From: an uncultured bacterium
GTDB taxonomy: Bacteria > Edwardsbacteria > AC1 > EtOH8
DNA: 64,000 nt
Assembly (NCBI GenBank): GCA_937863685.1
Contig: CALMGM010000005.1
Location: forward strand, 1-64,000
Direction of reading: 5' to 3'
The position numbers and the translations under genes were made by a program. Under the pieces are notes generated by a model. It searched no databases and was not told where the DNA came from. It saw only the letters and a program-made list of their open reading frames with translations. This document shows positions 1 through 62,544 of the stretch, piece by piece (positions within the stretch are counted from its first letter, which is position 1; each line of letters begins with the position of its first letter).

Positions 1-828
1 CGCCATTCATCCCGCTGCCCAGGGAATCCCAGGACGAGCCGTTCCATTTGGCTATACGATTGGCGCTCACCCCGTCGGCCGTGGTGAAAAGACCGCCGGC
101 ATAGACATCGCTGCCACTGACAACCAGGTCAAAGACTTCGCCATTCATCCCGCTGCCCAGGGAATCCCAGGACGAGCCGTTCCATTTGGCTATACGATTG
201 GCGCTCACCCCGTCGGCCGTGGTGAAAAGACCGCCGGCATAGACATCGCTGCCACTGACAACCAGGTCAAAGACTTCGCCATTCATCCCGCTGCCCAGGG
301 AATCCCAGGACGAGCCGTTCCATTTGGCTATGCGGTTGGCACTCACCCCGCCGGCCGCGGTGAAACGGCCGCCGACATAGACATCGCTATCACTTACCGC
401 CAGAGTAAAAACATGGTCATTTAGCCCGCTGCCCAGGGCCTCCCAGGACGTGCCGTTCCACTTGGCGATGCGGTTGGCGCTCATCCCGCCGGCGGTGGTG
501 AATTCGCCGCCGGCATAGACATCGCTGCCGATGACCGCCAGGTCATAGACTCGCTCATTCATTCCACTACCCATGGCCTCCCAGGACAAGCCGTTCCACT
601 TGGCAATGTAATTGGCGCTCACCCCGCCGGCCGTGGTGAAATCGCCGCCGACATAGACATCGCTGCCGATGACCAAAATGGCCCGGACTAGGTTATTCAT
701 CCCGCTGCCCAGGTCCTCCCAGGTCGTTCCGTTCCACTTGGCGATATAGTTGGCGCTCATCCCGCCGACGGTGTTGAAATTACCGCCGGCATATACGTTT
801 CCCATACTGTCCAGAGCGATTGCGAAAA
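1..828 (-). repeat. Tandem 138-bp coding repeats (six units)
   Basis: Units begin at 1, 139, 277, 415, 553 and 691 with an exact 138-bp period, equal to 46 codons, so every copy keeps the frame. Units 1 and 2 (1-138 and 139-276) are identical base for base, the third differs moderately and the rest are more diverged. Identity rises toward the window edge, which suggests recent expansion or gene conversion in the unseen part. Confidence 0.9.
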
Positions 829-58829: not shown

Positions 58830-58858
58830 TTGACAAGTGCCTTGATTTGATATATAAT
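58830..58858 (+). promoter_or_regulatory. Promoter of tRNA-Gln
   Basis: TTGACA (58830-58835) and TATAAT (58853-58858) are perfect hexamers with a 17-base spacer, 24 bases before the tRNA. The stop codon of the antisense recombinase overlaps the -10 box. Confidence 0.8.
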
Positions 58859-60405
58859 TACAAACCTTGATCTTTTTGAAATTGGGGGATCGTCCAACGG
58901 CAGGACACATGGCTCTGGACCATGGTATCGGGGTTCGAATCCCTGTCCCCCAGCCACTTAGAACGGGTAGGCCCTTTAGCGAAAAAGCTAAAGGGCTTTT
59001 TGTATGTGGGACAAAGGGTTGCGTTAAGGAGAGTGTAGTTCGAAGCTATCAAGCCAGCCAGCTTTGCCTGTTCTGAGGGGTTCCCTTTCAAGTATAATTT
59101 TGGCAACACTTTAGCGAGTTCGAAGGTTCTGCTGAGTATTTCCGGGCCGTTTTTATTAACCTCCGAGGTTGAGTCCAATTGCTGTTTGAGCTCGACAATC
59201 TGGTTTTTATATTCTTTTTCTTTGCGTTTAAAATCATCCTCATCAATTTCTTTGTCGAACTTAGCATCTATAAGTTTATCCAGCCGCCGCTGCATCCGTT
59301 CTAATTCCCTCTTATTGGCTTCTTTTTTGGTCTCAATAAAATTTTCTTTTTTATTGAGACTTTCGTCCAGGGCTTTTGATAGCAAAGACTGGACATCCTC
59401 CGGTATCTGAATTCTGCTTATTGACTCAAACAACTGCTTGGCCACGTAATCTTCTGTCAGATAGTGCTGCCCCTTATGCCTTCCCTTGGAGAAAGTGCAG
59501 TGGTAGTATATGTGTTTGTTTTTCTTTATTTCTGCAATCACCTTGCTCCCACAGACCCCGCAAGTCATCAGGTTAGTAAAGGCAAAATTTTTCCTCTGAA
59601 TCGAATAATGATTTTTACCCTGCAACACTTCCAGTGCTTTGTCAAAAAGCTCCTTGCTGATTAGCGGCGTATGCTGTCCCATATATTTTTTCCCGCCCCA
59701 GGTGAAGACGCCATAGTAAACTGTATTGTGCAGCATACGGTGGATAGAACTCTTGTCAACCATTCGGTTGCCCCGGCTTCGGAACCCTTCCTTGTAAAGC
59801 GTCTGGGAAACCATTTTAATTGAGTTTGTCCCCGAGGCTACCATTTCAAATGCCCGCCTTACATAGGGAGCGAGGTCATGGTCTATTTCTATGGTCTTAA
59901 GTTTTAGGTTGTTGACATAGCCGATAGGGGCATAGGATGGATACAAGCCCTGCTCCGCCTTTTCTGCCTGACCAATGCTGGCTCTTTTGGAGGTTTCATT
60001 TGACGACTTTTTGGCCACGGCGACTTCTATGTCCAGCATAAAGAAATCATCGGAGCCGGAATCTTTGTTTATTAATTTATTCGACCGGGAGAAATGGATT
60101 GTCTTGCCATAGAATTTAATCAGGTCGTTCACCTTCATTTTATCCAAATCGTTCCGTGTCATCCTGTCGGCAATGTCAAATATAATATGCTCAATCTCCG
60201 GGTGCTTTTTAGCATAGTCAATCATCAGGTTGAAAGAAGTCCGAGAGACGCTCCAGGCTGACTCGGACACCTTCCATCTTTTGACTATTTCCAAACCCTT
60301 CCTCTTAGCGTATTCAAGCCCCAGCTTCTCCTGGGCATCCAAAGAGAAACCTTCCAGTTCCTGCTCTTTGGTGGAAACTCTGACGTATAGGAGAGCTTTG
60401 TTCAT
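58858..60405 (-). CDS. Large serine recombinase (integrase of the mobile element)
   Basis: A 515-residue serine integrase. The resolvase domain has the catalytic Ser in LLYVRVSTKEQE and DRMTRNDLD; a recombinase domain follows (about 165-265), then a zinc ribbon TCGVCGSKV ... YYHC, a long coiled coil (residues 345-415) and a C-terminal YKKPFSFF segment normal for the family. The last 30-odd residues come from the antisense strand of tRNA-Gln (GDRDSNPDTMVQSH), and the stop lies in the tRNA's -10 box. These integrases insert and excise DNA between short att sites without host help, with a directionality factor. It overlaps the XRE gene by 4 bases. Confidence 0.92.
   Translation of the reverse strand: MNKALLYVRVSTKEQELEGFSLDAQEKLGLEYAKRKGLEIVKRWKVSESAWSVSRTSFNLMIDYAKKHPEIEHIIFDIADRMTRNDLDKMKVNDLIKFYGKTIHFSRSNKLINKDSGSDDFFMLDIEVAVAKKSSNETSKRASIGQAEKAEQGLYPSYAPIGYVNNLKLKTIEIDHDLAPYVRRAFEMVASGTNSIKMVSQTLYKEGFRSRGNRMVDKSSIHRMLHNTVYYGVFTWGGKKYMGQHTPLISKELFDKALEVLQGKNHYSIQRKNFAFTNLMTCGVCGSKVIAEIKKNKHIYYHCTFSKGRHKGQHYLTEDYVAKQLFESISRIQIPEDVQSLLSKALDESLNKKENFIETKKEANKRELERMQRRLDKLIDAKFDKEIDEDDFKRKEKEYKNQIVELKQQLDSTSEVNKNGPEILSRTFELAKVLPKLYLKGNPSEQAKLAGLIASNYTLLNATLCPTYKKPFSFFAKGPTRSKWLGDRDSNPDTMVQSHVSCRWTIPQFQKDQGL
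58883..58956 (+). tRNA. tRNA-Gln (anticodon CUG), integration target
   Basis: Acceptor TGGGGGA pairs with TCCCCCA, the anticodon arm CATGG-CTCTGGA-CCATG gives CTG, the T loop is GTTCGAAT, and CCA is encoded. It is intact, and the recombinase gene reads antisense over its whole length. Confidence 0.95.
58930..58960. other. Inferred attachment site (left end of the element)
   Basis: The adjacent recombinase frame crosses the 3' half of an intact tRNA gene, which is the usual picture for an attL. The exact crossover cannot be read without the right end, which is outside the window. Confidence 0.4.
58971..59001 (+). terminator. Terminator behind tRNA-Gln
   Basis: GCCCTTTAGC and GCTAAAGGGC pair around GAAAAA, with T5 following on the plus strand. 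The antisense strand encodes the KPFSFFAKG part of the recombinase. If crossover is in the tRNA, this terminator is supplied by the element. Confidence 0.82.
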
Positions 60406-60596
60406 GCGTTCACCTTCTTGCTTTTCTGGGCCAGGAATTTCTCTATATGGTAGCGCTGGATTGGCCTGGGCATAGCTTTACCATTGAACCAGCGATTGAT
60501 GGTGGGGAAGGATACTTCCAGGAGCTGGGCCAACTGTTGCTGCGTGATTCTGTTTTCCAGCCTGTAATTATTGAGTTTTTCAATTAATTCGTCCAT
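60402..60596 (-). CDS. XRE-family helix-turn-helix regulator
   Basis: A 64-residue protein: helix-turn-helix of the Cro/CI type (RLENRITQQQLAQLLEVSFP, then TINRWFNGKAMPRP), and a short C-terminal helix. Its size fits a repressor, an excisionase or a recombination directionality factor. The predicted promoter places its 5' end at the ATG, leaving no leader, as with lambda cI from PRM. It overlaps the recombinase start by 4 bases, so it probably tunes the integrase. Confidence 0.85.
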   Translation of the reverse strand: MDELIEKLNNYRLENRITQQQLAQLLEVSFPTINRWFNGKAMPRPIQRYHIEKFLAQKSKKVNA

Positions 60597-60603
60597 ATGT
60601 CAT

Positions 60604-60632
60604 ATTATATCATTTTATAAAGTGTAATACAA
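60604..60632 (-). promoter_or_regulatory. Promoter of the XRE-recombinase operon, leaderless
   Basis: On the minus strand TTGTAT (60632-60627) and TATAAT (60609-60604) are spaced by 17 bases. The start is expected around 60597, one base before the ATG at 60596. Confidence 0.62.
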
Positions 60633-60645
60633 TAGGTATTAACAG

Positions 60646-60840
60646 CTAATTTGTGGCACTGCCAGGAATGTTGTATTTCCGGGCCAGATAAAAGCAATGC
60701 TCGTGGAGATTAACCATGTTGTCAATGCACTCCTCGGCATCAGCGTAGGTTAACTTCACCTTCGAATAGGGTTGCAAGACCAAGAGAGCCTGGTCTAACA
60801 ATTCTTGCGAATATTTATATGTCGACTGGATTGGGGGCAT
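60646..60840 (-). CDS. Small protein of unknown function
   Basis: A 64-residue protein, mostly helical with His/Cys-rich EECIDNMVNLHEHCFYLARK. No family recognised. A stop codon lies in frame just upstream, so the ATG at 60840 is the natural start, although without a ribosome site. Two direct repeats of GTTCTAAC lie immediately before it. It is between the XRE and 177-residue genes in the same direction. Confidence 0.55.
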   Translation of the reverse strand: MPPIQSTYKYSQELLDQALLVLQPYSKVKLTYADAEECIDNMVNLHEHCFYLARKYNIPGSATN

Positions 60841-60842
60841 AA

Positions 60843-60862
60843 GTTCTAACTAAGGTTCTAAC
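60843..60862. promoter_or_regulatory. Direct repeats GTTCTAAC, possible operator
   Basis: GTTCTAAC occurs at 60843-60850 and 60855-60862, 12 bases apart (about one helical turn), just upstream of the small gene. This could be a binding site for the nearby XRE protein; inferred only from position. Confidence 0.35.
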
Positions 60863-61475: not shown

Positions 61476-61559
61476 AGTCTTTTCTCCTCCTCCTGGTGGT
61501 GGTTGGTGGTAATCGTCCTTCCTGGGATTGTTATCGTATTTTAAAGCCGAAGCAATCTG

Positions 61560-61589
61560 AGTCGACTTTCGCTTTAGCGAAAGTCGACT
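61560..61589. repeat. 30-bp palindrome in the origin region
   Basis: Arms GTCGACTTTCGCT and AGCGAAAGTCGAC surround TT, extended by one A-T pair. The stem-loop lies immediately beside three AT-rich 13-mers. Confidence 0.85.
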
Positions 61590-61593
61590 ACTT

Positions 61594-61632
61594 TACCGTT
61601 TTCTATTACCGTTTTCTATTACCGTTTTCTAT
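61594..61632. repeat. Three exact AT-rich 13-mers (unwinding-type repeats)
   Basis: TACCGTTTTCTAT occurs three times head to tail (61594, 61607, 61620), followed by a diverged TAATTATTTATCTAT. This resembles the AT-rich 13-mers at which replication origins open. Confidence 0.8.
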
Positions 61633-61668
61633 TAATTATTTATCTATTAGAGGGATTTTTACATTGGT

Positions 61669-62373
61669 TTACTTTTTGCCCTGCATAGGTTTATTGTTGT
61701 CAATAGTGTTTCTTGACGGCAACGGTATGTTTCCCGTTGGCAACGGAGCGTTTCCCGTTGGCAACGGAGCGTTTCCCGTTGGCAACAATATGTTTCCCGT
61801 TGGCAACGGAGCGTTTCCCGTTGGCAACAGTTTGTCTTGGGAAACCACAGCATCAACTTTTGACTCCTCTGCCTCGTCATTATCATAAATACATGTCAAC
61901 ACATCACTATCCTTAAATTTTTGCTGCTCCCCATTTTCCCATTTTTCTACAACATCATTCATTTCCGCTTCATAAAAATATAATTCTTCAGGTCTCTTTA
62001 ATCCTGTATCTTCGTTTACTTCATATAAAATATTCCCTTCTCTATCTTTCTTGAGATTACCGAGAATATAGGTGTAAGGCATTCCCCTTTTATCCGCACC
62101 TTGAATTGCAATCCATTTTGCCATTAAAAGCGCCTTAATCCTCTTAGAAACCTCTCCGGGACTTAATTTCATCTGAGCAGCAAGTTTTCGACAGGATATA
62201 CGAGAAACCAAATACCCCTCCTTATAATATTTCCCCAGTGGCCCGGTAGTTCTACGCCATATTCCGCATCGTAGGTGAAAATATACCCTTATGTTGTCCC
62301 AGCCGACATCATTATCGTATCCGGTATAAAACAATGGATATGGCACTATTATATATAATTCAGAACGTTCCAC
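61669..62373 (-). CDS. Winged-helix replication-initiator-like protein with iterons in its own gene
   Basis: A 234-residue protein. The N-terminal part has a winged-helix/MarR-like region (ISCRKLAAQMKLSPGEVSKR, then AKWIAIQGADKRGMPYTYIL). The C-terminal part is mostly made of a seven-residue repeat of the type LPTGNAP, which mirrors the 21-bp DNA repeat. The GTG at 62373 is chosen because AAGGAGG lies nine bases upstream; the frame extends to a TTG at 62394 that would swallow this ribosome site. By layout it resembles lambda O. No helicase-loader motif is seen. Confidence 0.7.
   Translation of the reverse strand: MERSELYIIVPYPLFYTGYDNDVGWDNIRVYFHLRCGIWRRTTGPLGKYYKEGYLVSRISCRKLAAQMKLSPGEVSKRIKALLMAKWIAIQGADKRGMPYTYILGNLKKDREGNILYEVNEDTGLKRPEELYFYEAEMNDVVEKWENGEQQKFKDSDVLTCIYDNDEAEESKVDAVVSQDKLLPTGNAPLPTGNILLPTGNAPLPTGNAPLPTGNIPLPSRNTIDNNKPMQGKK
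61709..61834 (-). repeat. 21-bp iterons with internal dyad
   Basis: TTTCCCGTTGGCAAC starts at 61730, 61751, 61772, 61793 and 61814, exactly 21 bases apart, with a diverged unit at 61709. Three full copies contain the 13-base dyad CCGTTGGCAACGG. The period is two helical turns and equals seven codons, so spacing is kept for both reading frame and DNA face. Confidence 0.9.
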
Positions 62374-62450
62374 AATTAATAACCTCCTTAACAATTCTAT
62401 TATTGTTTGACATATAGCAACCGATACTTTTGACTCGCATTTTGGGAAAC

Positions 62451-62476
62451 AAAAAAGGCCCAGCCCGAAGGCTGAG
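62451..62476 (-). terminator. Terminator of the zinc-finger gene
   Basis: On the minus strand GCTCAGCC and GGCTGGGC pair (one G-T) around TTCG, followed by CTTTTTTG. Confidence 0.75.
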
Positions 62477-62544
62477 CAATAATAACATAACCATAGAATA
62501 TGTCAAAACCCTTGAACAGTGCTCTTTTTAACGTTGTTTAAGTA

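Follow-up and report, generated by a model that had tools for sequence, protein, structure and literature searches.

A winged-helix-like gene with an in-gene iteron array as a candidate replication module of a tRNA-Gln-integrated island

Origins of replication located inside a gene are known from lambdoid phages and from Gram-positive plasmids. In the lambdoid phages the origin sits in the middle of the O gene (PMC7466680), and in plasmid pSK41 it is reported to be central in rep, and the stretch of protein that it encodes there to be dispensable (PMC5703833). In the V. cholerae satellite PLE a large serine recombinase occurs together with a winged-helix RepA and with semi-palindromic iterons; PICIs have an AT-rich region flanked by two sets of iterons, and the replication proteins of SaPIs have primase and helicase activity (PMC7145576). 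The pri-rep-ori modules of PICIs and SaPIs place rep on the island together with an iteron origin (PMC6092414).

Here we describe a locus in a 64,000-nucleotide stretch of DNA from an uncultured bacterium, referred to below as the window, which corresponds to positions 1-64000 of a 1.21-Mb contig. On an integrated island, a winged-helix-like gene carries an array of tandem repeats at its 3' end, close to AT-rich 13-mers (Table 1). With moderate confidence, we interpret this locus as the replication module of the island, in which an initiator gene harbours its own origin. Since the layout matches known replication starts of phages and plasmids, the island is possibly capable of its own replication.

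Table 1. Features of the island's left end and of the candidate replication locus (window coordinates unless marked as contig).
Feature	Position	Strand	Remarks
Large serine integrase	58858..60405	-	last codons read through tRNA-Gln
Left attachment core, 10 bp	58947..58956	+	CCCCCAGCCA; 3' end of tRNA-Gln (58883-58956)
Small XRE-type HTH regulator	60402..60596	-	common to G006 sister island
64-aa gene	60646..60840	-	common to G006 sister island
Orphan gene, 177 aa	60942..61475	-	just downstream of presumed origin, in helicase-loader position
30-bp palindrome	61560..61589	.	perfect 14-bp arms, 2-bp centre; can form a hairpin
Three tandem 13-mers, exact	61594..61632	+	TACCGTTTTCTAT; starts 61594, 61607, 61620
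Candidate DNA-unwinding element	61612..61661	.	from nearest-neighbour stability profile
Winged-helix-like gene, putative replication initiator, 234 aa	61669..62373	-	ORF, GTG start 62373
Iteron array (putative)	61729..61828	-	16-bp cores start 61729, 61750, 61771, 61792, 61813
Sigma-70-like promoter, strong	62458..62506	-	TTGACA-16-TATTAT, TG before -10; upstream of winged-helix-like gene
Orphan gene, 399 aa	62586..63785	-	upstream of winged-helix-like gene, terminator between
Right attachment core	contig 102430-102439		second copy of last ten tRNA-Gln bases; outside window

The first-pass annotation of this DNA had placed the locus on an integrated element, and the ends of that element can be defined. 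The ten-base core recurs beyond the right edge of the window, and in a congener (G002) the site is empty, with tRNA-Gln running straight into the sequence found after the right copy. The two core copies together with this empty site delimit an island of 43.5 kb, which has a GC content of 46% against 51-53% in its flanks. The integrase reading frame passes through the antisense of tRNA-Gln (58858-58956), so the attachment site supplies the last integrase codons, which excision would alter. Elsewhere in the genome (G000:C5:281699-283105) there is another serine integrase, distantly related (26% identity), and no relatives of the large serine integrase were found in IMG/VR. Another congener, G001, has the last 20 tRNA-Gln bases repeated about 170 bp further on (GAATCCCTGTCCCCCAGCCA; L031, G001:C81, 1824-2090) and a partial tRNA upstream; these are traces that other integrations have left at this hotspot. 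Outside the island, a 138-bp unit is repeated in tandem (5.7 copies) at window positions 1-793.

Besides the serine integrase and the XRE regulator, the island carries type I restriction-modification, ABC-3C/Lamassu-like, UmuDC-like, RmuC, lipid-transport-type and kdp genes. Defence-type cargo occupies contig 63.9-80.4 kb (L003 8859-14507, L004 974-5390), where type I restriction-modification genes are accompanied by TPR proteins and by a DUF2326 protein with SMEK/ABC-3C CTD12 (Lamassu-like models), and a gene with a HEPN domain is found further to the right. The island's right end holds a kdp-type potassium-transport operon (contig 94587-102280, L004/L005; E1-E2 ATPase, KdpC, KdpD and a response regulator), which is unusual next to defence-type cargo. 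Among the island genes scanned, several of which are orphans, we found no relaxase, secretion or phage structural genes and no packaging, interference or capsid-related genes.

A sister island is present at the tRNA-Gln of G006, which belongs to another genus. Its integrase, XRE and 64-aa genes are the same, with 91% identity over 58883-60860; neither the winged-helix gene nor tandem repeats were found in the 18 kb read past the shared region. This island, with the same integrase and without the module in that 18 kb, counts against the origin reading and indicates that members of this integrase family do not always come with the module. Also on the sister island is a major head protein fragment (phrog_138, E 8.5e-14; L030, G006:C12, 4716-5093), T4-like by eye and apparently a phage remnant.

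The array consists of five copies at a constant spacing of 21 bp, two turns of the helix. It had been described at first as five exact 21-bp repeats with a 13-base dyad. The copy number and spacing hold, but the exact part is a 16-bp core, GTTTCCCGTTGGCAAC, identical in all five copies, and identity over the full 21 bp is limited to three of them. Likewise, the 13-base dyad (CCGTTGGCAACGG) is complete in three copies, and the others share only the 9-base dyad (GTTGGCAAC) that is common to all five. On the coding strand each unit reads TTG CCA ACG GGA AAC followed by a 6-bp spacer, the G before it completing the 16-bp core, and the varying part is the spacer: in order, GCTCCG, ATATTG, GCTCCG, GCTCCG and ATACCG. 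A degenerate sixth copy with 4 mismatches out of 16 is located at 61708-61723. Beyond the array, no copy of the core with fewer than two mismatches was found in the whole genome or in nine other genomes of the family.

These repeats are not a product of chance. Sixty first-order Markov sequences of 64 kb each contained no 16-mer recurring nearby and no 13-mer with three close copies, and when 115 kb of the contig was scanned in bins, three or more close copies of any 13-mer turned up in the 61.5-kb bin alone.

Because the 21-bp period is a multiple of three, an expansion preserves the reading frame, and the array might be a coding minisatellite with no role in replication, formed when a 21-bp unit expanded in tandem within a tail that an ordinary winged-helix regulator can do without, the 13-mers being a second local expansion. 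Similar heptapeptide repeats in unrelated places keep this the main rival explanation: 21-bp LPTGN-encoding arrays are found in unrelated genomes, mostly non-genic or heptamer-based, a PglX model has similar repeats at its C-terminus, and no relatives of the protein were found that could show conservation. Variation in the array, however, is limited to five positions of the 6-bp spacer, and the other 16 bp are identical, synonymous sites included. The LPTGN codons are the same in all five units, where 768 spellings of these five residues are possible, and the spacer differences alter amino acids (Ala/Ile, Pro/Leu), which suggests that selection acts on the DNA of the array rather than on the encoded protein. 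That all five variable positions out of 21 fall in one 6-bp stretch has, by our calculation, a p of about 0.005 if positions vary independently, which is supportive and not decisive since the changes may be two block events. An expansion would also have to account for two unrelated tandem arrays, a palindrome and a duplex-stability minimum within 270 bp, with no other such array in the genome and no other close 13-mer triple in 115 kb. We consider it rather unlikely. A scan for DNA patterns coding for (LPTGNxx)3 gave no match in IMG/VR and seven in GTDB contigs; all seven were rejected as kin of this locus, being unrelated repeats with none beside a winged-helix gene.

The three exact 13-mers of the first-pass annotation are present, in an AT-rich stretch just beyond the stop codon of the winged-helix-like gene. 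The candidate unwinding element overlaps them and is the least stable 50 bp of 61500-62450, within the lowest 0.3% of both the island and the window. It lies about 70 bp from the array, on the downstream side and outside the gene; in lambda the unwinding stretch is likewise downstream of the iterons. The palindrome is perfect, as had been noted, and its hairpin has a folding energy of -15 kcal/mol. It has no T-run and so is not a standard intrinsic terminator, and by itself it is not rare, with perfect 14-bp-arm hairpins in about eight places elsewhere in 115 kb of the contig. Both features had been placed within 100 bases of the array, which is right for the 13-mers (about 95 bp) but not for the palindrome (about 140 bp). 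There is no cluster of DnaA boxes, a single one-mismatch site corresponding to the background rate, and this speaks against the origin reading. An Rfam search returned the tRNA as its sole match.

The reading frame of the winged-helix-like gene is open from an upstream TTG at 62394 (241 aa). We favour the GTG as the start because of a Shine-Dalgarno sequence, GGAGG, identified by inspection at 62383-62387. The protein ends in the repeats, which form a C-terminal tail of (LPTGNxx)5. Pfam gave weak HTH_24, AsnC and MarR matches over residues 64-95, the HTH_24 match (E 8e-4) scoring 19.3 bits against a cut-off of 21.9; the open reading frame and these weak matches agree with the original placement of the array inside the 3' end of a gene with winged-helix similarity. 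The protein had also been called no obvious O homologue, and indeed its match to the O-like phrog_678 (E 0.22-0.3) is not significant and Phage_rep_O is absent among its Pfam matches. Neither the RepA_N (PF06970) nor the HTH_36 model picks it up, and BLASTP against pSK41 Rep gave nothing significant. With hhalign the domain aligns in sensible register on the N-termini of RepA_N and lambda O, at a probability of about 1% for each and with 2 of 100 (RepA_N) and 1 of 100 (lambda O) shuffled queries scoring as well, a test that has little power since lambda O against RepA_N scores no better. AlphaFold without an alignment was uninformative (pLDDT 34 for the whole protein, 40 for the N-terminal part), and no C-terminal loader- or primase-binding domain was found. 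Searches of GTDB contigs, IMG/VR, phages, plasmids and 386 genomes returned no relatives, where the GTDB-contig and IMG/VR scans reach close relatives only and the phylum is represented in the set by ten genomes. Weak matches (E 0.001-0.01; L040-L044) of the winged-helix-like, 177-aa and 399-aa proteins were rejected as unrelated or broken frames. As judged from these comparisons, the lack of any family model that places the protein in replication, with weak HTH matches only, counts against the origin reading, and so does the absence of relatives, of a loader- or primase-binding domain and of a recognisable loader gene next door.

The best domain matches are to transcription-factor families (AsnC/MarR), as would be expected if the repeats were operators through which a winged-helix transcription factor controls itself and the downstream 177-aa gene. 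Half-iterons (GTTTCCC) are found in the opposite orientation at 62444, near the promoter, and at 61839, at the upstream edge of the array; these are possible autoregulatory sites, and such 7-mers arise by chance too. The array, however, is about 250 bp upstream of the next gene, in the regulator's own 3' end and far from its promoter, and five phased in-gene copies together with an unwinding-prone repeat would in general be unusual for an operator. Control of transcription as the function of the array is, in our view, very unlikely. The promoter of the winged-helix-like gene overlaps an intrinsic-terminator-like hairpin.

For the 177-aa product we found no similarity and no recognisable loader; it was rejected as an O C-terminal domain, with 81 of 100 shuffles scoring as well. 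The 399-aa gene is probably outside the replication module. In type III partition, too, phased tandem sites are known to which a winged-helix protein binds, as TubR does to tubC, and the array could by that analogy be a centromere-like partition site. The genes scanned include no ParA-, ParM- or TubZ-like motor, and an AT-rich melting element would not be expected at such a site, which makes partition highly improbable.

As a candidate origin, the locus has an anatomy that fits pSK41 rep even better than lambda O/ori. Like RepA_N initiators such as pSK41 Rep (PF06970), with their winged-helix N-terminal domain, it has semi-palindromic iterons inside the gene (23 bp there, 21 bp here) and three adjoining AT-rich tandem repeats. 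Run as a control on pSK41 rep, the same repeat finder returned semi-palindromic repeats of 23 bp and, after them, three AT-rich repeats of 15 bp, all inside rep; on lambda O it returned four iterons at spacings of 20, 24 and 23. The iterons of pSK41 encode a central linker, whereas those described here encode the extreme C-terminus of a protein that has neither a PF06970 match nor a C-terminal primase-interaction domain. The AT-rich repeats here are outside the gene, and the locus is on a chromosomal island in a phylum that has been sampled sparsely.

The first-pass annotation had called the origin Lambda-O-style, and this is apt for the architecture: a putative DNA-binding domain, dyad-bearing iterons inside the initiator gene and an adjacent AT-rich tract follow each other in the direction of transcription, and an orphan gene occupies the position of P. 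It does not extend to the protein, which has no significant O match (E 0.2-0.3) and no O-type C-terminal domain, nor to the next gene, which is not O-C-terminus-like. The iteron sequences are unrelated, and the AT-rich tract here is outside the gene.

PLE resembles this system in being an integrative island with a large serine recombinase, semi-palindromic iterons and an initiator of the winged-helix type (putative here) for which neither primase nor helicase activity is predicted (PMC7145576). As in PLE, the gene lies on an integrative island, here with a serine integrase and clearly delimited ends, which speaks for the origin reading. The iterons of PLE, however, are in a separate non-coding region (NCR3), and no phage-satellite genes or helper phage were identified for the island described here. 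PICIs and SaPIs also have an island-borne rep with an iteron origin (PMC6092414), but neither their double iteron sets around an AT-rich region nor primase or helicase activity is seen here.

If the locus is an origin, the protein would use its winged-helix N-terminal part to bind the five iterons, all on the same face of the DNA, in the 3' end of its own gene. The nucleoprotein complex so formed would melt the AT-rich 13-mer stretch past the stop codon, where a loader encoded by the host or by the island could place the replicative helicase. On this reading the (LPTGNxx)5 tail would for the most part be a side effect of accommodating iterons in an open frame. Autonomous replication of the excised island, as foreseen in the first-pass annotation should the origin be real, is a hypothesis. 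A broader proposal, which we judge unlikely, is that the protein represents an undescribed family of initiators with a split design, in which a winged-helix origin binder carries the iteron array as its gene tail, the melting element and the loader (encoded by the 177-aa orphan) are placed outside, and excised defence islands are replicated in a sparsely sampled phylum.

The locus is a small and clean test case of about 1.6 kb, although the mechanism itself would not be new. If our interpretation is correct, an in-gene origin within an unassigned initiator gene on a defence-carrying chromosomal island in a sparsely sampled phylum would suggest that this arrangement arises repeatedly. It would also provide a handle on the spread of such islands and a possible replicon for an uncultured lineage.
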